Assembly: GCF_014334055.1 (NCBI RefSeq)
Contig: NZ_CP060490.1
Location: 496,001 to 560,000 of the forward strand
Source of the DNA: Oscillibacter hominis
GTDB lineage: Bacteria > Bacillota > Clostridia > Oscillospirales > Oscillospiraceae
Length of the DNA stretch: 64,000 nt
Reading direction: 5' to 3'
Each line of letters starts with the position of its first letter. Position 1 is the stretch's first letter. Below are positions 19,997-59,773 of the stretch, piece after piece. The translations under genes and the position numbers were made by a program. The notes under the pieces were generated by a model, which saw only the letters and a list, made by a program, of their open reading frames with translations, did no database searches and was not told the DNA's origin.

Positions 19997-20755
19997 ATGA
20001 GAACCGCGATTATCACCGGTGCATCCTCCGGCCTGGGCCAGGAGTTTGCAAGGCAGTTCACAGAGGTGTTTCCCAACGTGGAGTGCGTCTGGCTGATTGC
20101 CCGCCGCAGGGAGCGGCTGGAAGCTGTCCAGGACGCGCTGGCGGAGCTTCAGGTGGAGATTCTCCCCCTGGACCTGTGCGAAGGGGCCAGTTTTGCCTAT
20201 CTGGAGGAAAAGCTGCGGCTGGATCAGCCCAATGTAACGCTGCTGATCAACTGCGCCGGCTGCGGTTATTTGGGCAATGTGGGCGAGATGCCCACCCAGA
20301 CCCAGACCCGCATGGTGGACCTCAATGTCCGCGCGCTGACTGCTGTGACCAATTTGGTGCTGCCCTATATGAAGGCGGGAGCGCGCATTCTCAACGTGTC
20401 GTCCATCGCGTCGTTCTGCGTAAACCCCAGGATGACGGTCTACTCCGCCAGCAAGGCGTATGTCTCCCGGTTTACCGTGGGGATCAGCGAGGAGCTGCGC
20501 AAGAAGGGCATCCACGCCACGGCGGTCTGTCCCGGCCCCATGGAGACGGAGTTTCTCACCGTGGGCGGAATCACCGGCAACTCCCGGATGTTTGAGACCC
20601 TGCCCTACTGCGACCAGGTGCGGGTGGCGGCGGGCGCGTTGCGGGCGGCCAGGGCTGGGCGGACCATTTATACGCCTAAGATGTTTTACAAGTTCTACCG
20701 GCTGGCGGCGAAGTTACTGCCGGAACAGCTGGTTGCAAAGATTGCAAAGACCTGA
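19997..20755 (+). CDS. Short-chain dehydrogenase/reductase
   Basis: 252 residues. NAD(P)-binding TGASSGLGQEF at residues 7-17, NCAGCG loop, catalytic Ser in NVSSIASF and YSASK with the Tyr-Lys pair. Of the DltE/YqjQ-like classical SDR group; substrate unknown. ATG 19997 has AAGGAG upstream and lies 14 bases after the cyclophilin gene. Last protein gene of the smpB transcript before ssrA. Confidence 0.85.
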   Translation: MRTAIITGASSGLGQEFARQFTEVFPNVECVWLIARRRERLEAVQDALAELQVEILPLDLCEGASFAYLEEKLRLDQPNVTLLINCAGCGYLGNVGEMPTQTQTRMVDLNVRALTAVTNLVLPYMKAGARILNVSSIASFCVNPRMTVYSASKAYVSRFTVGISEELRKKGIHATAVCPGPMETEFLTVGGITGNSRMFETLPYCDQVRVAAGALRAARAGRTIYTPKMFYKFYRLAAKLLPEQLVAKIAKT

Positions 20756-20767
20756 TCCATTGATCAT

Positions 20768-20794
20768 GGTGTGCCGTGCACTGCGCGGCACACC
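20768..20794 (+). repeat. Hairpin between the SDR gene and ssrA
   Basis: GGTGTGCCG pairs perfectly with CGGCACACC around a 9-nt loop. No T run, so a weak terminator or a processing element ahead of tmRNA. Confidence 0.5.
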
Positions 20795-20824
20795 TGCGAG
20801 ACCCTACCGACCGACATCAGATAT

Positions 20825-21189
20825 GGGGGTGTACCGGTTTCGACGGGGGTATGGAGGCTGGATAAGCGGGCGGATGCGCCTAACATCCTTAAAATGGGCA
20901 TTTTATAAATTAAAGAACAACAACACTGTTGCTGTTGCTGCCTAACTAAAGGCAGCCGTCCGACCGGACAGGACCGCGGGTCCGGAAGGGCGTCGTTTAG
21001 CGGTAAATGTGAGTACAGTAAGCTTTGCCTGTGCCACACATCATGAAGCTCACCTGACCTGACGGCGTGGCGGCTTGCCGCCGGGAAGGGGAACGGGAAG
21101 AGAAAGACTTCCAAAATAACCGCCTGCGCCCGGAGAAAGTCCTGTCAAAGTGCTTTCGGACGGGGGTTCAACTCCCCCCACCTCCACCA
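20825..21189 (+). ncRNA. ssrA: Transfer-messenger RNA
   Basis: 365 nt. The tRNA-like ends fit: 5' GGGGGTG pairs with CACCTCC, T arm GGGGG-TTCAACT-CCCCC, and an encoded CCA at 21187-21189. GGTTTCGACGGGGG after the acceptor strand is the classic tmRNA 5' motif. The tag frame ends with codons for NNNTVAVAA and TAA at 20943-20945; the resume codon is not the usual GCA and is probably AAG at 20913. Rescues stalled ribosomes with SmpB. Confidence 0.95.
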
Positions 21190-50972: not shown

Positions 50973-50995
50973 AAATGGCGAAAGGGGGAGTGCCC

Positions 50996-51202
50996 ATGCT
51001 GTCCGCTACGCTGCTGCTCCTGTGCAACAGCCTGCTGTTTTCCCTGAGGCTGGAGGGGAACGGCAGTTCATTTCCAAAGCCCCTCTCTGCGGCGGAGGAA
51101 AAAATGTATCTGGAACGGTTTTCACAGGGGGATGTGGAGGCCAGAAATGTACTCATCGAACACAATCTGAGGCTAGTGGCACATATCATCAACAACGGGT
51201 GA
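50996..51202 (+). CDS. sigK: Sporulation sigma factor SigK, N-terminal part (split gene)
   Basis: Codes for [17 protein letters not shown] (pro-sequence-like hydrophobic start), [21 protein letters not shown] and [17 protein letters not shown], which is the N-terminal third of SigK up to region 2. It then runs into TGA at 51200-51202 after two codons of foreign sequence. The SigK part ends at 51192 with the first two bases of a Lys codon. ATG 50996 (GGGGGAG 5 bases upstream) is preferred over ATG 50975, which lies ahead of the predicted transcription start. The rest of the gene is at 59281-59773. Confidence 0.9.
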
Positions 51203-51453: not shown

Positions 51454-52428
51454 TTATCTGCTTGTTTGTATCCAGTTGTTCTGCCGCAGCACCCGCTCCC
51501 GCATCTGCTCCACAAAGCGCTCCGGGCCCAGCACACGGACCACGGGGCCAAAGCCCAGCAGACGGATGAGGACCTCGGTCTCGTCGTCCCGCTGATACCA
51601 CAGCTTGACGGTGCAGGTTTTCGTCTCCTCGTCGTACTCGCTCTGTTTTTCATAGGAGGAGAACTCCACCATAAAACGTTCGATGCCGTTGCGCTCACGG
51701 GTGACCCGGAGGAGCAGCGGCTCGGCGCAGCGGTGCCTGACCCGCCAGCCTTCCAGATCCAAGGGACCGTCATACCGCTCGGTGGAGGGCCCCACTTCTT
51801 GGATGCGGCTCAGGTTCAGGATATGGTAGCCCTGGAAGACTCCGTGCCACGCTTTGGCTGTGTAGACCCGGAACTTGTCGTCCTTTGCGGAGTACTCCAG
51901 CCGCAGAGGCCGGTGGTCGCCCAGCTGTAAGCGGCTCTTGGGCGGCGCGTAGGCCAGGCGCAGGAAGGCCCCCTCCCGCAGGGCGGCCAGGATGGCCTGG
52001 AAGTGCCGACGGTAGTCCGGGTCGGTGTAGCCGTCCCCGTCCAGGTAGCGGTCAAAATAGAAAAAGTCCTCCTGCCGGTAGAGTGGCGCCACGTCCCGGA
52101 GGGCTTCGGTCAGGTGGTCGAGCTGTTCGTCGGTCATAAAGAGCCGGATGCGCGGGTCGCCCAGCAGGGCTTTCAGCCAGGCGCGCTCCAGGGCCGTTAC
52201 CGGCAATGCAGGCGGATGCTCCAGCAGGGAGAACAGCAGCCCGTCCCGCTCCTCCAGCAGCGGCCAGGCATTCTGATTCAGCAGCTTGGGGATAAGCTGG
52301 AGGGTGCTCTCCCCGTAGCCCCGCTCTCCCACCAGCGCCTCCACTTGGCGTCGTGTCAGCGGCGCGGCGTGGAGAATGTCGGCCACCACCTGATAATAGC
52401 AGCCGTAGACCTCGGAAAAGAGTTCCAC
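51454..52428 (-). CDS. WYL-domain protein, second of two
   Basis: 324 residues from GTG 52428, sharing one base with the stop of the preceding WYL gene (TAGTG). N-terminal helical part, then a WYL-type SH3-like fold (about 145-230: LRLAYAPPKSRLQLGDHRPLRLEYSAKDDKFRVYTAK) and a C-terminal extension (ETEVLIRLLGFGPVVRVLGPERFVEQMRERV). WYL domains bind ligands, often nucleic acid pieces or nucleotides, and control transcription in defence and repair loci. Cotranscribed with the upstream WYL protein and divergent from the RNA array. Confidence 0.85.
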   Translation of the reverse strand: MELFSEVYGCYYQVVADILHAAPLTRRQVEALVGERGYGESTLQLIPKLLNQNAWPLLEERDGLLFSLLEHPPALPVTALERAWLKALLGDPRIRLFMTDEQLDHLTEALRDVAPLYRQEDFFYFDRYLDGDGYTDPDYRRHFQAILAALREGAFLRLAYAPPKSRLQLGDHRPLRLEYSAKDDKFRVYTAKAWHGVFQGYHILNLSRIQEVGPSTERYDGPLDLEGWRVRHRCAEPLLLRVTRERNGIERFMVEFSSYEKQSEYDEETKTCTVKLWYQRDDETEVLIRLLGFGPVVRVLGPERFVEQMRERVLRQNNWIQTSR

Positions 52429-53660
52429 TATTCCTCACCCCCGTACATCCCCACCATGCGGTGTACATCGTCATAAAAGCGGTCTATGGCGCGCTGATCG
52501 TCCCCTTCCAAGGCTACAATGCGTCCGATAAAGGTCTTGACCCAGTTCATCATCTCGCCCACGTCGTAGACCTCGTTGGTGTAGCGCCACAAACCGGGCT
52601 CCAGCTGGGCCACATGGCCGCCCCGGCCCTCCCGGCGCAGGCGCTGGATGATGTGGGGCTCGTGCTCCTCGTCCACCGCCACCGTCATGGAGAAGCGCCG
52701 GGTCCGCTCATGTCTGGGCAGGGCGGGGCCCCAGGCATGGGCCAGGAGGAGGTCCGCCAGGGCGCGGTAGTTCTCGTCCCCTTCGTGCCCGGGGAGGGGC
52801 GCCAGGGCCTTGATATAGTCCAGCCGGAAGGTGGAGAACCGCCGCTGTTCCAGGTGGTGGGCCACCAGGTAACGCCGCCCGCTCTGGACGCTCACCATGA
52901 TCTTGACCGGCACCACCCGGCAGACGCTCTGCCGCCCGTCCCGCCCACTGACGTTGGTCAGCTCCAGCCGCAGGCCGTCCCGGAGGGCCTCCAAAATGGT
53001 GAGGAGAATCTGGTCCTCCAGGGTGTGGACGATGAAATGATGCTTAAACCGGAGACTGGGATTCTCTCCTCCGAGGCGGCCGGACAGAAAATAGCCGACG
53101 ACGGAGAGCGGGGCGGCCTCTCCGAAAAAGCCCAAGAACTCCGATAGGCCGGTCTGATCCGGGAACAGAGAATCCAGGGAGCACGGGGAGATGGCATAGT
53201 ACAGCCTTCGACCTTGCTTTTGCGTATTCAGGATTCCCAGTTCCTCATACTCCTTCAGTTTCCGCCGGACAGTGGGCAGCTCGAAAAGCTGTTCCCCACG
53301 CTCCGCCAGTTCGTCCGTGATCTCCTCCGCGTGGCGGGGCTGGCCGTCCGAGAGCAGATCCAACAGGTAAAAGTGGAGGGTGATGTCGTTGTCGGTGAAG
53401 CTCTTGGACTGCCAAGCCCGATAGAGGGGATTGTGGGGGAGCTCCGAGGCATCCACGGAGAGGAACACGGCCTTCCCGCCGGGGCGGTACTCCCAGCGCA
53501 GGCCGTCCCCCAGCCAGCTCTCGATGCGCCGGCGCTCGTTGTCGTAGGTACGGGCGCTCTTCTGGTCGAAGTCTTCCCGGGTCTTGTAGCCGAAAATCAG
53601 AAAATCCCGCATGTAGTCCCGCACCCGGTCAAACCGCTTGACCAATTCACTGTAGGCCAT
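52428..53660 (-). CDS. WYL-domain transcriptional regulator, first of two
   Basis: 410 residues. A helix-turn-helix region (ITLHFYLLDLLSDGQPRHAEEITDELAERGEQLFELPTVRRKLKEYEELGIL, about 90-145), then a WYL domain (about 210-300) with VPVKIMVSVQSGRRYLVAHHLEQRRFSTFRLDYIKAL, and the WCX-type C-terminus. ATG 53660 follows GGAGG by 7 bases. It faces the RNA array, DUF2828 and rtcB, and takes the place that RtcR has in proteobacterial rtc operons, so it is the likely switch of the island. Confidence 0.88.
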   Translation of the reverse strand: MAYSELVKRFDRVRDYMRDFLIFGYKTREDFDQKSARTYDNERRRIESWLGDGLRWEYRPGGKAVFLSVDASELPHNPLYRAWQSKSFTDNDITLHFYLLDLLSDGQPRHAEEITDELAERGEQLFELPTVRRKLKEYEELGILNTQKQGRRLYYAISPCSLDSLFPDQTGLSEFLGFFGEAAPLSVVGYFLSGRLGGENPSLRFKHHFIVHTLEDQILLTILEALRDGLRLELTNVSGRDGRQSVCRVVPVKIMVSVQSGRRYLVAHHLEQRRFSTFRLDYIKALAPLPGHEGDENYRALADLLLAHAWGPALPRHERTRRFSMTVAVDEEHEPHIIQRLRREGRGGHVAQLEPGLWRYTNEVYDVGEMMNWVKTFIGRIVALEGDDQRAIDRFYDDVHRMVGMYGGEE

Positions 53661-53683: not shown

Positions 53684-53712
53684 AGTTTACGACATATCGG
53701 GAGACCTCGCAA
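53684..53712 (-). promoter_or_regulatory. Promoter of the WYL genes
   Basis: Minus strand TTGCGA (53712-53707), 17 bases, TAAACT (53689-53684). Confidence 0.5.
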
Positions 53713-53718
53713 CTTTTT

Positions 53719-53751
53719 TGGAATGAAAAGTTTTCCACCTGCGGTTAAGAT
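53719..53751 (+). promoter_or_regulatory. Promoter and palindrome before the RNA array
   Basis: TGAAAA (53724-53729), 16 bases, TAAGAT (53746-53751) puts the start at about 53758, four bases before RNA 1. TGGAA, 9 bases, TTCCA (53719-53737) overlaps the -35 and could bind a WYL regulator. No sigma-54 GG/GC promoter is seen. Confidence 0.5.
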
Positions 53752-53761
53752 TGGAACATGA

Positions 53762-53857
53762 AAGGCGCCAACAGCAACTTCGATTAGCTAAGTTGGTATA
53801 GCAGTTGACTTAAGATCAACGTTTCGCGGGTTCAAATCCCGCATCAAACGGCGCCTT
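53762..53857 (+). ncRNA. tRNA-like/Y-like RNA 1 (anticodon position TAA)
   Basis: 96 nt closed by AAGGCGCC/GGCGCCTT. Inside, after AACAGCAA, is a full tRNA cloverleaf: weak acceptor CTTCGAT/ATCAAAC (5 of 7 pairs), TA, D arm GCTA-AGTTGGTA-TAGC, anticodon arm GTTGA-CTTAAGA-TCAAC (TAA), variable GTTTC, T arm GCGGG-TTCAAAT-CCCGC. There is no CCA and the acceptor is continued into an outer stem, so it is not an ordinary tRNA. A tRNA-like module on a stem is the plan of bacterial Y RNAs. Confidence 0.8.
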
Positions 53858-53863
53858 GCTATA

Positions 53864-53921
53864 AACGCACCAACAGCAATCCTACATACAGCTGTTAACT
53901 GTGAATCGTAAACGGTGCGTT
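53864..53921 (+). ncRNA. Short Y-like RNA 2 with Asn-type anticodon arm
   Basis: 58 nt closed by AACGCACC/GGTGCGTT and again followed by CAACAGCAA. The only inner element is an anticodon-type hairpin TACAG-CTGTTAA-CTGTG, whose loop equals that of tRNA-Asn (GTT at positions 34-36). No D or T arm. A reduced member of the array. Confidence 0.7.
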
Positions 53922-53926
53922 GTCAA

Positions 53927-54021
53927 AAGGCGTCAACCGCAGCTTTTCAATAGCTAAGTGGTAAAAGCGCCTGGCTCATAACCAGGAGACGCGGGTCCGA
54001 ATCCCGCTGAAATGGCGCCTT
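53927..54021 (+). ncRNA. tRNA-like/Y-like RNA 3 (anticodon position CAT)
   Basis: 95 nt closed by AAGGCGTC/GGCGCCTT (one G-U pair); after the stem AACCGCAG. Cloverleaf: acceptor TTTCA/TGAAA, D-arm GCTAAGTGGTAAAAGC, anticodon arm CCTGG-CTCATAA-CCAGG (CAT), T arm GCGGG-TCCGAAT-CCCGC. Same plan as RNA 1 and no CCA end, so a mimic of tRNA-Met rather than a tRNA. Confidence 0.8.
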
Positions 54022-54030
54022 GATTTCCCA

Positions 54031-54121
54031 AAGGCACAGACAGCAATCCAATTTGGTCATTCCATTCAGGAACGTGGTTCAACTCCACAACGCCGGGCAA
54101 CCGGTGTCGAAACTGTGCCTT
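54031..54121 (+). ncRNA. Y-like RNA 4 with T-arm-like hairpin
   Basis: 91 nt closed by a perfect 9-bp stem AAGGCACAG/CTGTGCCTT, followed by ACAGCAA. Inner parts: TTCC/GGAA hairpin, T-arm-like GTGG-TTCAACT-CCAC, and CGCCGG-GCAA-CCGGTG with a GNRA loop. No anticodon arm. It ends 32 bases before the DUF2828 start, so it lies in the leader of that mRNA or is cut from it. Confidence 0.7.
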
Positions 54122-54153
54122 GCAATCGTCAAGCAGGTAAGGAGGTCATCATC

Positions 54154-55617
54154 ATGCTTGCGTTTTTGAAGAAAGAAGCCCTCACCACCCGCACGGAAAA
54201 CGGCGCGGCCGCCTACGCCACCACCATGAGTGATTGCCTGGACCTGTTTTCCACCGTCGGCGCGCTCCGCGCTGCCTCCGAGGCGGAGATTGCGGACCGC
54301 TTCACCCGGGCCTGGGCGGAAAACCCCGACCTGGCAATGAAAATCGCCTTCTTCGCCCGGGACGTCCGGGGCGGCCTGGGCGAGCGCCGGGCCTTCCGGG
54401 TCATGTTAAAGACCCTCTCCGCCTTGGCCCCCGCGTCTGTGGTCAAGAACCTGGCGAACATCCCCGAGTATGGCCGTTACGACGACCTGATAGCCCTGTT
54501 GGACACCCCTTGCAGGGGGCAGATGCTTGTCTACATAAAGGGGCAGCTTGCCAGGGATATCGCCGCCCTGGGCACGGAGGAGGAATCTGTCTCCCTGCTT
54601 GCCAAGTGGCTCCCCTCGGTGAACGCCAGCAGCGCGGACACCGTCCGTGCCGCCAAGCAGGTGGCCCGCGCCCTGGGCATGAGCGACGCCCGGTACCGCA
54701 AGACCCTCTCCGCGCTCCGGGCCAGAATTGCCATCCTGGAGAATAGCCTCCGGGAGCGGGACTATACCTTTGACTATGCCAAGCAGCCTTCCAAGGCCAT
54801 GTTCAAGTACCGCAAAGCGTTCCTCCGCAACGACGGCGTACGCTATCAGGCATTTTTGGAGCAAGTTCGCTCGGGCGAGGCCAAGCTGCACACGGGGACC
54901 CTGTATCCCTATGAGCTGGTGGCCCCCATCCTGAACGGCACAGTATCCGAGGCCGAGCGTCTCACCCTGGACACCACCTGGAACTCCCTGCCCGACTACG
55001 CCTCGGACGGCGACGCTCTGGTGGTGGTGGACGGCTCCGGCTCCATGTACTGGAATGGGGCTCAGCCCATGCCCGCCACGGTGGCCCTTTCCCTGGGGCT
55101 CTACTTCGCCCAGCGGAACACTGGGGCCTTTCGGGGCCACTTCATCACCTTCTCCAGCAGACCCAGGCTGGTGGAGGTGAAGGGACGGGATCTCTACGAG
55201 CAGGTGAAGTACGCCGAGAGCTTCAACGAGTGCGCCAATACCAACGTCCAGGCGGTCTTTGACCTCATCCTGCGCACGGCGGTGAAAAACCGTTTAAAGC
55301 AGGTCGACCTGCCCGCCACGCTGTACTTTATCTCCGATATGGAGTTCGACTCCTGCGCGGAGCACGCGGATTTGACCAACTTCAATTGCGCCCATCGGGC
55401 CTTCGAGGCCAAGGGCTACAAGCTTCCCCGCGTGGTGTTCTGGAACGTGGCCAGCCGTGCGCTCCAGCAGCCCGTCACCATGAACGAGCAGGGCGTGGCG
55501 CTGGTCTCCGGCTGCACGCCCCGGCTCTTCGAGATGGTCCTGGGCGGCAAGCTGTCCCCCTACGCCTATATGTTGGATATTCTGAGCGCCCCCCGGTACC
55601 GGGACATCGCGGCATAG
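54154..55617 (+). CDS. DUF2828 protein, Ro60-like plan with vWA/MIDAS domain
   Basis: 487 residues from ATG 54154 (AAGGAGG 8 bases upstream). The alpha-helical N-terminal two thirds (1-280) hold the DUF2828 marks FFARDVRGGLGERRAFRVM, IPEYGRYDDLIAL, LLAKWLPSVNASS, LGMSDARYRKTLSALR and LYPYELVAPIL. The C-terminal vWA domain has an intact MIDAS motif VVVDGSGSMYWN (about 288-299) and the later YFISDMEFD. Helical ring plus vWA is the plan of Ro60/Rsr, the Y-RNA-binding RNA-quality protein, and this gene follows four Y-like RNAs and precedes rtcB. RNA binding is therefore inferred, not shown. Confidence 0.82.
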   Translation: MLAFLKKEALTTRTENGAAAYATTMSDCLDLFSTVGALRAASEAEIADRFTRAWAENPDLAMKIAFFARDVRGGLGERRAFRVMLKTLSALAPASVVKNLANIPEYGRYDDLIALLDTPCRGQMLVYIKGQLARDIAALGTEEESVSLLAKWLPSVNASSADTVRAAKQVARALGMSDARYRKTLSALRARIAILENSLRERDYTFDYAKQPSKAMFKYRKAFLRNDGVRYQAFLEQVRSGEAKLHTGTLYPYELVAPILNGTVSEAERLTLDTTWNSLPDYASDGDALVVVDGSGSMYWNGAQPMPATVALSLGLYFAQRNTGAFRGHFITFSSRPRLVEVKGRDLYEQVKYAESFNECANTNVQAVFDLILRTAVKNRLKQVDLPATLYFISDMEFDSCAEHADLTNFNCAHRAFEAKGYKLPRVVFWNVASRALQQPVTMNEQGVALVSGCTPRLFEMVLGGKLSPYAYMLDILSAPRYRDIAA

Positions 55618-55687: not shown

Positions 55688-56896
55688 ATGATTGAAATTA
55701 CCGGCGCCCACAACACCGCCAAGGTGTTTATCGACACCATCGACGAGACGACCCGGGCGCAGATTACCACCATGTGCGACCAGGACTTCCTGGAAAACTG
55801 CCGCATCCGGGTGATGCCGGACACCCACGCGGGCAAGGGCTGCACCATCGGCACCACCATGACCCTCCATGACAAGGTGGTGCCCAATATGGTGGGCGTG
55901 GACATCGGCTGCGGCATGGAGACGGCCATTTTGGACGAGAAGTCCCTGGACCTGGAGGCTCTGGACCGCTTCATCCGTGCAAATATCCCCGTGGGCATGG
56001 AGATTCGGGAGCACCCCCATTCCTACCAGACCCAGGCCGATTTGAGCGCGCTGCGCTGTTTTGGCCAGATCAACGAGCATCGGGCCCGCCATTCCATCGG
56101 CACCCTGGGCGGCGGCAACCACTTCATCGAGGTGGACCGGGACGATGAGGGAACCTTGTACCTGGTTATCCACTCCGGCAGCCGCCACTTGGGCACAGAG
56201 GTGGCCCGCTGGTACCAGGAGGAGGGCTACCGCAGCCTCTCCGGTAACAGCAGGCGCCAGCTCCAGGAGCTGCTGGACGCCCTCAAAGCCGAGGGTCGCT
56301 TCCAGGAGATCGAACCCGCCCTGCGGGCGGCCAAGCGCCGCCGCCCCGGCGGGGCCGTCGCTCAGGATCTGGCCTACGTGGAGGGGGCCCTCTTTGACGA
56401 CTACCTCCACGATATGGCCCTCACGCAGCGCTTCGCCCTCCTGAACCGCAGGGCCATAGTGAGCGAGATCGTCCGGGGCCTGGGCCTGACGGTGCGGGAG
56501 ACCATCAGCACCATCCACAACTACATCGATACCGGCACCATGATCCTCCGCAAGGGGGCCGTCTCCGCCCAAAAGGGGGAGCGCCTGCTCATCCCCATCA
56601 ACATGCGGGACGGCAGCCTGCTCTGCGTGGGCCGGGGCAACGAGGACTGGAACTGCTCCGCCCCCCACGGAGCGGGCCGGCTCATGAGCCGTCACGCGGC
56701 CGCGGCGGCCTTCACGGTGGAGGAGTTCCGGCGCTCCATGGAGGGCATCTACACCACCTCCGTGGGACGGGACACCCTGGACGAGTGCCCCATGGCCTAC
56801 AAGGACATGTCCGCCATCGTGGACAATATCGGCCCCACGGCCGAGATCATAAAGATCATTCGCCCCGTCTACAACTTCAAGGCGGGCGAGAGATGA
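55688..56896 (+). CDS. rtcB: RtcB RNA ligase (3'-phosphate type)
   Basis: 402 residues from ATG 55688 (AGGTGA 5 bases upstream). Joins RNA 2',3'-cyclic or 3'-phosphate ends to 5'-OH ends with GTP and Mn2+. Motifs present: MPDTHAGKGCTIGTTM, VGVDIGCGME (metal Asp/Cys), GTLGGGNHFIEV, HSGSRHLG, SAPHGAGRLMSR with the His that takes GMP, and DECPMAYKD. Short bacterial form like E. coli RtcB. Neighbours (Y-like RNAs, DUF2828, WYL regulators) make it the repair enzyme of the island. Confidence 0.95.
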   Translation: MIEITGAHNTAKVFIDTIDETTRAQITTMCDQDFLENCRIRVMPDTHAGKGCTIGTTMTLHDKVVPNMVGVDIGCGMETAILDEKSLDLEALDRFIRANIPVGMEIREHPHSYQTQADLSALRCFGQINEHRARHSIGTLGGGNHFIEVDRDDEGTLYLVIHSGSRHLGTEVARWYQEEGYRSLSGNSRRQLQELLDALKAEGRFQEIEPALRAAKRRRPGGAVAQDLAYVEGALFDDYLHDMALTQRFALLNRRAIVSEIVRGLGLTVRETISTIHNYIDTGTMILRKGAVSAQKGERLLIPINMRDGSLLCVGRGNEDWNCSAPHGAGRLMSRHAAAAAFTVEEFRRSMEGIYTTSVGRDTLDECPMAYKDMSAIVDNIGPTAEIIKIIRPVYNFKAGER

Positions 56897-57481: not shown

Positions 57482-57676
57482 TTGGAGAGCGCACAGAAAG
57501 AACTGCTGAGCGTCCTGTTGGGGCACGTCTTTTCCCTTGGCCTTATATCGAAATCCACCTATTCTCACGCGGAAGATTTGGTGCATTCTGTGATAGACTT
57601 ACCGGAGTTGTTGCGGTATCCTGTGTGCTTGACAGAGGAGGCGAGCAGGCATGAATGTATTGAAAATACGCAGTGA
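57482..57676 (+). CDS. Small protein upstream of the recombinase, candidate directionality factor
   Basis: 64 residues from TTG 57482 with GAGGTGA 6 bases upstream: MESAQKELLSVLLGHVFSLG..., then AEDLVHSVIDLPELLRYPVCL and a charged end. It overlaps the recombinase start by 26 bases, so the two are coupled. No family assigned. In Clostridioides difficile a small protein encoded in the skin element (CD1234) gives the recombinase its excision direction; position and size here suggest the same job, without sequence proof. Confidence 0.6.
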   Translation: MESAQKELLSVLLGHVFSLGLISKSTYSHAEDLVHSVIDLPELLRYPVCLTEEASRHECIENTQ

Positions 57677-59318
57677 GATGAGAAACGGGAAGTCCATTTT
57701 TGATCTCCCGCTGCGCGTAACTTTTTACGCCAGAGTATCGACTGACAAAGACGAACAACTCAACAGCCTGGAAAACCAGGTGCAATATTATACGGAACTG
57801 ATTCAATCGAAACCCAACTGGACTTATGTTAAGGGGTACATTGACGAGGGCATCAGCGGGACAAGTACCAAAAAGCGGGATAGTTTCAATCGGATGATCG
57901 CGGACGCCAATGCGGGACGTTTTGACTTCATCATCACGAAAGAAATATCCCGCTTTTCCCGTTCTACCCTGGACAGTATCCAGTACACTCAACAGTTGCT
58001 GGAGCACGACGTGGGAGTGTTGTTCCAAAACGACAACATCAATACCTTGGACAGCGACAGCGAGTTCCGTTTGGTGGTCATGGCCGGCGTGGCCCAGGAC
58101 GAGGTGCGCAAGCTCTCTGAACGATTGAAGTTCGGTTTCCGCCAGGCCATCAAAAACGGCCATGTGCTGGGAAACGACAAGCTGTGGGGGTACGACAAAA
58201 AGGACTGCGTGCTGACGATCAATGAGGAGGAGGCCCGGGTGGTCCGCCGGATTTTCGACCTCTACGCCAACCAGCAGATGGGCATTCGCCGCATTTCCCA
58301 GACGTTGTATGACGAAGGCTTTACCAGCCGGAAGGGCAACGCCTTCAACGTGCTGACCATCCGGCATATCCTCTGCAACCCCAAGTACAAGGGCTGGTAC
58401 TGTGCCAACAAATCCCAGACGGTGGACTACCGCAGCAAGCGCAAGGTCTTCCTGGAGGAGAGCGAGTGGGTCATGTACCCGGACCCCTCTATCCCGGCCA
58501 TTGTATCGGAGGAACTGTGGGACCGGGCCAACGCACTCTATAAGCGCCGCAGTGAGCAGATGATGTCCCACCAGAGCGCCGCCGAGTTCCACAACCGCTA
58601 CCCGTACAGCGGCAAGATCATCTGCGAGGAGCACGGCACCAGCTTTCACCGTCAGGTGCTCAAGAGCGCCAAGGGGGAAAAGGAGGTCTGGCAGTGCCGG
58701 GTGTACCGCAATCGGGGCCGGGCGGCCTGCTCCGCGCCCCAGCTGCGCACCACGGAGCTGGATCAGATCATGGCTCAGATTTTCGATCAACTGGCCCAGG
58801 ATAAGCAGGCCATTGTGGACGCGGTGGTGAAGGTCATCCAATCGGTCCCCGATGAGCACGACTATGGGCGGGACGTATTGCGCATCGAGGAGGACTTGTC
58901 CGCAATCCACGCAAAAAAGGACCGCCTGCTGGAGATGAGCATGGCGGAGGCGATCACCATCGAGGAGTTCAAGCGCCGCAACGACAGCTTTAATGAGCAG
59001 ATCAAAGAGCTGGAGGAACGGCTGGAGTTCGTGAAAACGGAGGCGCAGAAGAGCAAGCGCTCCATAGAGCAGTTGGAGCAAATCCGCACCGCGCTCGAAC
59101 AGGAGCTTTCTTTCGAGAACGGCATCAATTCAACCCTGGTGACCACTATTCTGGACCACATCGTGGTCAAAAAGAGCAGCACCAAAGAGGAAGTGCATCT
59201 GGATATTCACCTGAAATTCGGCGACCCCTGCGGGGTCGTTTTTAACCGCAACGATTCCTCCTTTTGTTTCAGCCGTTTAAAAAATACTACACTCCAAATG
59301 CCGACCAGGAGGATTTGA
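57651..59318 (+). CDS. Large serine recombinase of the sigK element (SpoIVCA-like)
   Basis: 555 residues. Resolvase domain (about 20-165) with nucleophile Ser in FYARVSTDKDEQ and EISRFSRSTLD, recombinase domain (about 185-290, LWGYDKKD...RRIFDLYANQQMGIRRIS), zinc-ribbon part (CEEHG ... WQCRVYRNRG..C), coiled coil (about 405-500), C-terminal beta part. GAGGAGG precedes ATG 57651. The frame crosses the right attachment site: its last 12 residues are coded by the sigK 3' part in another frame, and excision would replace them with 36 different residues. Confidence 0.93.
   Translation: MNVLKIRSEMRNGKSIFDLPLRVTFYARVSTDKDEQLNSLENQVQYYTELIQSKPNWTYVKGYIDEGISGTSTKKRDSFNRMIADANAGRFDFIITKEISRFSRSTLDSIQYTQQLLEHDVGVLFQNDNINTLDSDSEFRLVVMAGVAQDEVRKLSERLKFGFRQAIKNGHVLGNDKLWGYDKKDCVLTINEEEARVVRRIFDLYANQQMGIRRISQTLYDEGFTSRKGNAFNVLTIRHILCNPKYKGWYCANKSQTVDYRSKRKVFLEESEWVMYPDPSIPAIVSEELWDRANALYKRRSEQMMSHQSAAEFHNRYPYSGKIICEEHGTSFHRQVLKSAKGEKEVWQCRVYRNRGRAACSAPQLRTTELDQIMAQIFDQLAQDKQAIVDAVVKVIQSVPDEHDYGRDVLRIEEDLSAIHAKKDRLLEMSMAEAITIEEFKRRNDSFNEQIKELEERLEFVKTEAQKSKRSIEQLEQIRTALEQELSFENGINSTLVTTILDHIVVKKSSTKEEVHLDIHLKFGDPCGVVFNRNDSSFCFSRLKNTTLQMPTRRI
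59256..59300 (+). other. attR: Right attachment site of the sigK element
   Basis: Crossover AA at 59279-59280: element side TTTCAGCCGTTT, chromosome side AAAATACTACAC. Only this pair of the six A keeps the SigK frame and gives HIIKKYY, the sequence expected for the family. Confidence 0.8.
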
Positions 59319-59773
59319 TTTCCATAGGGACCATCGGGCTGATCAAGGGGATCAGCAGCTTTGACCCCTCCAAAGGCGCGCGTTTGGCCACCTATGCAGC
59401 CCGCTGTGTGGAAAACGAGATTTTGATGTACTTCAGAAGCCAGAAGAAATTACAGGGCGAGGTCTCCCTCTCCGATTCCATAGAGACGGACAAAGACGGC
59501 AACTCCCTTATGCTGATGGACGTCGTGGGAGTGGACGACACCATGCTGGAGGATCTCCATGACCGGGACAACAGCATCCGCATCCGCCATCTGGTGCAGG
59601 AGTGCCTGACGGAACGGGAGGCGCAGATCATCCGCCTGCGTTACGGCCTGGGAGGCGGAATTCCCCAGACCCAGCGGGAGGTGGCCAAGGTGTTCGGCAT
59701 CAGCAGAAGCTATGTGTCGCGCATTGAAAAGCGGGCACTGAATAAATTGGAGGAGGCGTTGGGCACGGAATAA
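59281..59773 (+). CDS. sigK: Sporulation sigma factor SigK, C-terminal part (split gene)
   Basis: Codes in the SigK frame for KKYYTPNADQEDLISIGTIG..., ATYAARCVENEILMYFRSQKK (regions 2.2-2.4, with the core-binding and -10 recognition helices), and a region 4 with CLTEREAQIIRLRYGLGG and VAKVFGISRSYVSRIEKRALNKL. Equivalent to B. subtilis spoIIIC. No proper start codon at its left edge, so it depends on excision. Joined to 50996-51192 it gives a full-length sigma factor of 229 residues that directs late mother-cell genes (coat, cortex, lysis). Confidence 0.92.

Follow-up and report, generated by a model that had tools for sequence, protein, structure and literature searches.

Y RNAs encoded beside Ro60 are already known in bacteria and phages, and Chen et al. 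(2014) reportedly described them from over 250 bacteria and phages, close to Ro60. In Salmonella, the rsr-yrlBA-rtcBA operon brings together a Ro60 protein, Y RNAs and RtcB, and PMC7790460 describes this operon as responding to cut tRNAs; it also reports that YrlA is not cut by the nuclease studied there, and suggests that YrlA acts as a competitive inhibitor of that nuclease. Phage tRNAs are thought to have been selected against host anticodon nucleases (PMC10264068). According to PMC12409363, the targets of AriB of the PARIS system are the tRNAs Lys UUU, Thr UGU, Asn GUU and Thr CGU, which it cuts, and some viral tRNAs, when overexpressed, inhibit it. In the P100-like Listeria phage CKA15, three highly transcribed, unannotated regions lie at most 2 kb upstream of a Ro-like gene whose product was found in virions; Y RNAs are one option among others that its authors consider for these transcripts (PMC12282133).

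The locus described here lies in a stretch of Oscillibacter hominis DNA of 64,000 nucleotides, hereafter the window, in which four tandem units are flanked by a divergently oriented WYL-type gene on one side and by a DUF2828 gene, with rtcB after it, on the other. The system is similar to YrlA, YrlB and Yrn with Rsr in having a small RNA beside a Ro60-type gene, a basal stem and a tRNA-like interior. By contrast with YrlA, its handle is ACAGCAA and not the RF02553 sequence, complete cloverleafs and anticodon arms on their own are found among its interiors, and a locus can hold as many as nine units. Compared with the Salmonella operon, WYL proteins are found instead of RtcR, no RtcA was found among the scanned neighbours, and the units carry anticodons. 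The phage tRNAs that resist cleavage or replace cut tRNAs (PMC10264068, PMC12409363) are like the units phage-borne, tRNA-like and often in tRNA clusters, and have anticodons in common with them, e.g. Lys UUU and Asn GUU; however, those tRNAs translate, whereas the units, without CCA or a proper acceptor, would act by binding or by presenting loops. The CKA15 locus likewise lies near a Ro-like gene, but its account, in the part available, mentions no units, handle or anticodon mimicry (PMC12282133). The different handle, the cloverleaf and bare anticodon-arm modules and the multi-member arrays of up to nine units per locus appear new: among the papers listed in searches of the open-access literature, none dealt in its title or abstract with Y RNAs that mimic anticodons. 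In the same literature, the word DUF2828 appears in four plant papers only.

The array and its neighbours in the window

The original prediction, made from the letters and their reading frames, had described a four-unit array, and each of the units was recovered where it had been placed. The features of the locus are as follows.

51454..52428, minus strand: second WYL/WCX-like protein (weak WCX match, 20.9 bits, cut-off 23.9; PADLOC WYL model, E 1.5e-11)
52428..53660, minus strand: WYL-domain protein (Pfam PF13280, 36 bits), divergent from the array
53708..53719, plus strand: promoter-like or operator element CGCAACTTTTTT, conserved among loci
53745..53751, plus strand: possible -10 element TTAAGAT, proposed from the alignment of upstream regions
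53762-53858, plus strand: unit 1 (U1), stem AAGGCGCC/GGCGCCTT, ACAGCAA, Leu(TAA)-like cloverleaf 53778-53850 with anticodon arm 53804-53820 and T-arm 53826-53842
53864-53922, plus strand: unit 2 (U2), stem AACGCACC/GGTGCGTT, ACAGCAA, Asn(GTT)-type anticodon arm 53887-53903
53927-54022, plus strand: unit 3 (U3), stem AAGGCGTC/GGCGCCTT with one G-U, ACCGCAG, Met(CAT)-like cloverleaf 53943-54016 with anticodon arm 53970-53986 and T-arm 53991-54007
54031-54122, plus strand: unit 4 (U4), stem AAGGCACAG/CTGTGCCTT, ACAGCAA, T-arm-like hairpin 54074-54088, GNRA hairpin 54093-54104
54154..55617, plus strand: DUF2828 + DUF7788 protein (Pfam; PHROG 850, RNA-binding protein), with a predicted Ro60 (TROVE + vWA) fold
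55688..56896, plus strand: RtcB RNA ligase (Pfam PF01139, 210 bits; PHROG 1075, 448 bits)
57651-59318: large serine recombinase gene, at the right end of the insert described below

The units share one layout, in which a closing stem of 8-9 bp is followed by ACAGCAA, the interior, and the stem complement with a G; the 5' stem leads into ACAGCAA in U1, U2 and U4 and into ACCGCAG in U3. ARAGORN called U1 as tRNA Leu (TAA) and U3 as tRNA Met (CAT), which score 57.3 and 55.0 bits with Rfam RF00005 (cut-off 29); the acceptor of such a tRNA-like unit runs directly into the closing stem. The anticodon arm of U2 reads TACAG-CTGTTAA-CTGTG, and U4 combines the T-arm GTGGTTCAACTCCAC with the GNRA hairpin CCGG-GCAA-CCGG. 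Against 200 dinucleotide shuffles each, the fold-energy z values of U1 to U4 were -3.07, -2.11, -3.19 and -4.25; in the minimum-energy fold of U2, ACAGC pairs with GCTGT and the anticodon arm is not formed. Minus-strand matches to Plastid-ycf2 were set aside, being below the cut-off and lying on the reverse complement of the tRNA-like parts.

The product of the DUF2828 gene is predicted to have a Ro60 fold. Its AlphaFold2 model (pLDDT 81.9, pTM 0.68, 36 sequences) had Ro60, Rsr or TROVE structures as its twelve best PDB matches, with E from 8.4e-9 to 1.5e-5 and TM by query of 0.36-0.55, including the Ro60 of Thermus phage phiLo. A sequence-profile search of the PDB with DUF2828 returned no match, and Pfam TROVE matched neither the window DUF2828 protein (threshold E 0.001) nor any protein of four host genomes. 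The units lie beside a gene for this putative Ro60-type protein in the window and in 78/81 loci; their paired ends form a basal stem with a conserved, putatively protein-binding part, and at least one RNA has a tRNA-like domain. Taken together, the units are predicted to be Y-RNA-like partners of a Ro60 homologue.

The pairing of DUF2828 with rtcB, also part of the original prediction, proved common without being general: of 73 bacterial loci whose sequence extends far enough, just 39 have RtcB immediately after DUF2828, 45 have it anywhere in the stretch, and 28 lack it in the stretch analysed. In DUF2828 phage records it is found in 2/41, and RNA_ligase PF09414 is above cut-off in 21/41, a figure that has no comparison group. 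A Pfam scan of the seven neighbouring window proteins found neither RtcA nor RtcR, so that RtcB stands alone among the scanned neighbours, as opposed to the RtcB, RtcA and RtcR of an rtcBA RNA repair operon. A WYL relative occurs in 46/65 loci with at least 2.5 kb upstream, and the WYL proteins may possibly regulate the array.

Upstream of the array, exact CGCAACTTTTTT was found at most 400 nt before the first unit in 46/78 loci, at 50-56 nt in 33 of the loci, and the alignment of upstream regions shows a TATNAT-like element shortly before unit 1 in relatives. The median distance from the end of the last unit to the DUF2828 start codon is 36 nt. Because of these upstream elements and this short distance, the array and DUF2828 probably belong to one operon, with the array at its 5' end; the conserved element upstream would drive transcription, and the individual units would then be released from the transcript.

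The whole system lies within an insert of about 8 kb, whose recognised content is the array with DUF2828 and rtcB, the two WYL genes and the recombinase. The insert splits sigK, the gene for a sporulation factor, into an N-terminal part (50978-51190) and a C-terminal part (59276-59773, positions 66-225 of TIGR02846). Since the insert splits sigK and carries the array together with a recombinase, the array system looks like the cargo of a small skin-type element. In the stretches of the 80 other bacterial loci, a search for the sigK insertion matched no recombinase, and matched sigK just once and poorly (20% identity, L058). Elsewhere in the window, the tmRNA gene (20623-21189) has a 5' end at 20623 or 20825, ARAGORN and Rfam disagreeing, and its tag peptide, as called by ARAGORN, looks unusually long.

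Recurrence of the array and covariation of the closing stem

The bacterial loci were the best 80 of 184 DUF2828 relatives from genome contigs, mostly Clostridia and Synergistaceae by record title, to which the window was added for a count of 81. A strict descriptor found 260 units at most 2 kb upstream of DUF2828 in 78/81 loci, whereas 272 kb of downstream sequence gave 12, the reverse complement 2, and ten mononucleotide shuffles 0-2 apiece. ACAGCAA is present in 201/260 units. The scan merged U1-U3 of the window into one 261-nt match, which was replaced by hand, giving 262 bacterial units; in this hand entry the end of U1 and the start of U3 are each one base late. The original prediction had held an array with varied anticodon loops to be unusual: the window is no one-off, with at least two units in 64 of the 78 unit-bearing loci and a maximum of nine per locus. 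In six of seven host genomes, a search for the handle pattern gave a single cluster of at least three matches, with scattered matches elsewhere; the seventh, that of L053, had two matches and no cluster.

Because the strict descriptor favours pairing by design, stem covariation was tested separately, without a pairing requirement. The original prediction had named a lack of covariation in the outer stems of homologous loci as one of two outcomes that would refute it, and the stems do covary: for 219 (92%) of 239 5' halves picked regardless of pairing, the sequence that follows contains the exact complement of the half's own 7-nt arm plus a G, whereas the complement of another class's arm followed in a mean of 2.3% (maximum 5.3%). 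Pairs 3-6 of the closing stem alternate between G-C and A-T types among the bacterial units. The idea that stems within an array are kept orthogonal was rejected, identical stem pairs within an array making up 9.0% against 10.9% expected, a non-significant difference (p = 0.11).

Arrays of this kind are also carried by phages. IMG/VR holds at least 545 DUF2828 stretches, the best 80 of which were taken as phage loci; 61/80 have units upstream of DUF2828, 132 in all, against 9 on the reverse complement and 1-7 in shuffles. Removal of units above 160 nt and of two duplicate contigs (L086, L114) left 121. Many of the phage loci are situated among tRNA genes. Among phage records, DUF2828 occurs in 682/50,697, with hosts that include E. 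coli, Salmonella, Listeria, Staphylococcus, Campylobacter, Vibrio and mycobacteria, and in mycobacteriophage records it is often annotated as a Ro-like RNA binding protein. Ten of the 682 records were inspected, counting only an NCAGCA core or near form with a shared stem, and nine had units (LeBron, PJN02, LP-124, EFDG1, SEP9, Ro111lw, F361, LAh_8 and a 7.4-kb gut contig), while Vibrio phage nt-1 had none by this descriptor; the same relaxed scan also gave 0-5 minus-strand matches per locus. Three of these phages, LeBron, SEP9 and the Felix O1-type Ro111lw, have their units on the downstream side of the DUF2828 gene, and those of Ro111lw stand among tRNA genes. In Listeria phage LP-124, less than 2 kb separates the DUF2828 gene from a gene for an RtcB-like protein, and the two products share 39% and 45% identity, respectively, with the window proteins. 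The survey of 80 bacterial and 80 phage loci, together with the predicted Ro60 fold of DUF2828, bears out three points of the original proposal: that the units mimic tRNA, that they share a conserved closing handle, which covaries, and that the array is linked to DUF2828.

Several side observations were made in these loci. In LP-124, which we take to be a relative of CKA15, a full-length match to ROOL RNA lies about 1 kb upstream of DUF2828 and the units (L163:1450-2001) and falls below the cut-off (87.4 bits versus 99.1); this ROOL-like match might account for one CKA15-type transcribed region. CCA-bearing tRNA genes share the stretch with units upstream of DUF2828 in bacterial loci L036, L037, L042, L044 and L046, as they do in phages, which suggests a shared history. 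In L004 (4374-4449) and L011 (4686-4764), tRNA-like elements without CCA and without a closing stem lie between units.

What the unit interiors copy

Three types of interior were recognised, namely cloverleafs with imperfect acceptors and without CCA, permuted T-D modules resembling YrlA, and the anticodon arm alone. T-arms were found in 65/262 bacterial units and in 0/20 shuffles. A 7-nt hairpin loop identical to a tRNA anticodon loop is present in 58/262 bacterial units (100 shuffles: mean 1.8, maximum 6; reverse complement 9) and in 24/121 phage units (shuffles: mean 1.1, maximum 4; reverse complement 2), T-loops being excluded and the reference being the loops of 390 ARAGORN calls outside units, not all of them proven tRNAs. 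Units of at most 80 nt have such a loop in 22/98 bacterial and 21/87 phage cases. The same loop is carried by several different stems among the bacterial units: CTTTTAA (Lys) by 4, CTCTTAA (Lys) by 5, CTGTTAA (Asn) by 5 and CTTCTAA (Arg) by 4. The anticodons differ in 17 of the 18 arrays that have at least two tRNA-identical loops. U36 is found in 38/58 bacterial mimic loops versus 99/286 CCA-bearing tRNAs (Fisher p = 1.6e-5). An exact anticodon-loop match is absent in 204/262 bacterial and 97/121 phage units, and many interiors are unexplained. Short phage units in L161, L163, L165 and L166 have many hairpins that match no tRNA anticodon loop, several of the loops containing TTGG or GCGG.

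Units called by ARAGORN lack the CCA end, and nearly always the full 7-bp acceptor, of a translating tRNA: CCA is encoded in 0/33, and all seven acceptor pairs are present in 2/33 (mean 5.06) versus 270/405 ARAGORN calls elsewhere. As for the resemblance to YrlA raised by the original prediction, it holds for some relatives and not for the window. Units with the T-arm before the D-arm, the permuted module shared with YrlA, score 28-48 bits with RF02553 (cut-off 69) in phage L161 and L164 and in bacterial L002, L024 and L070; matches of about 30 bits are weak, sub-cut-off matches occurring in 7/14 control genomes, and those of 40-48 bits are stronger. No RF02553 match to the window units was among those listed, and none in relatives reached 69 bits.

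Mimicry of toxin sites in rRNA was considered and rejected: the sarcin-ricin loop, decoding site, anti-SD, H69, 530 loop and PTC were each found in 0 or 1 of 388 interiors, and in 0 or 1 of the shuffled ones. The notion that mimics are cuttable decoys and phage tRNAs resistant was likewise dropped, the loop sequences showing no contrast between the two.

Possible functions of the array

We favour, with a probability of roughly 0.5, a mechanism in which the units are small Y-RNA-like decoys or baits for anticodon nucleases, with repair by RtcB. The units would be produced as small RNAs that copy parts of tRNAs. The closing stem and ACAGCAA would form a handle for DUF2828, as the basal stem of Y RNAs serves Ro60, while the interiors would offer intact anticodon loops as targets for nucleases that cut tRNA, with several anticodons represented in a single array. 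In the least certain step, the modules would compete for, or report on, nucleases of the PrrC, AriB, colicin E5 or colicin D type; RtcB would then reseal the breaks, and in phages the array would shield the infection from tRNA-cutting host defences. This mechanism is taken as the most likely because the variable interiors are often exact anticodon loops, several per array, in phages as well as bacteria, and many of the bacteria have RtcB. Against it, most units are without an exact anticodon loop, RtcB is often missing, mimic and phage-tRNA loops show no contrast, YrlA is uncut, and the predicted fold of U2 does not display its arm.

The main rival, which we consider unlikely although it is the strongest of the alternatives, is that the units, like the bacterial Y RNAs studied so far, gate the Ro60 ring and use their tRNA-like modules to bring in partners that process RNA, in the service of RNA quality control. 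The partners would be PNPase or tRNA-modifying or tRNA-processing enzymes, and the anticodon arms would recruit enzymes that act on anticodon arms instead of serving as nuclease bait. Consistent with this, Rsr and YrlA act with PNPase, and YrlA is a substrate of tRNA-modifying enzymes, according to PMC8394870; the permuted T-D units resemble YrlA, and DUF2828 has a predicted Ro60 fold. Taken alone, however, such tethering and gating leaves unexplained both the several anticodons per array and the link to RtcB.

It is rather improbable that the array serves, as the 5' part of the DUF2828-rtcB mRNA, as a leader whose cleavage by tRNA-cutting enzymes reports damage and alters operon expression. 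The median of 36 nt between the units and the DUF2828 start codon and the conserved element that precedes the first unit by about 53 nt speak for a leader, but the units of LeBron, SEP9 and Ro111lw lie downstream of the gene, and a leader would have no need for separate closed units. Finally, ordinary or decaying tRNA genes gathered near a recombinase are hardly credible and already contradicted: U1 and U3 do pass tRNA finders, and CCA-bearing tRNA genes do stand beside some arrays, but the outer stem covaries and ACAGCAA is present even in units that are not cloverleafs, CCA is found in 0/33 with acceptors mostly imperfect, and the units recur upstream of DUF2828.

Returning to the decoy or bait mechanism, its extension to an RNA shield common to phages and Clostridia, in which a Ro60-type ring displays exchangeable baits, made of anticodon loops or other tRNA parts, on a standard handle, these baits soak up or trip immune nucleases and toxins that cut tRNA, and RtcB reseals what is cut, is put forward tentatively. 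If true, such a shield would be an RNA counter-defence with exchangeable baits, of which the known Y RNAs are one visible edge. The question bears on the role of bacterial and phage Y RNAs and on that of the Ro60-like protein in many large phages, and since anticodon loops are copied exactly, laboratory phages offer a direct test of the idea. If the loops are baits, the anticodon nucleases that act against phages are opposed by an RNA counter-defence other than translating tRNA, and one could read from the anticodons in an array which nucleases its owner encounters.
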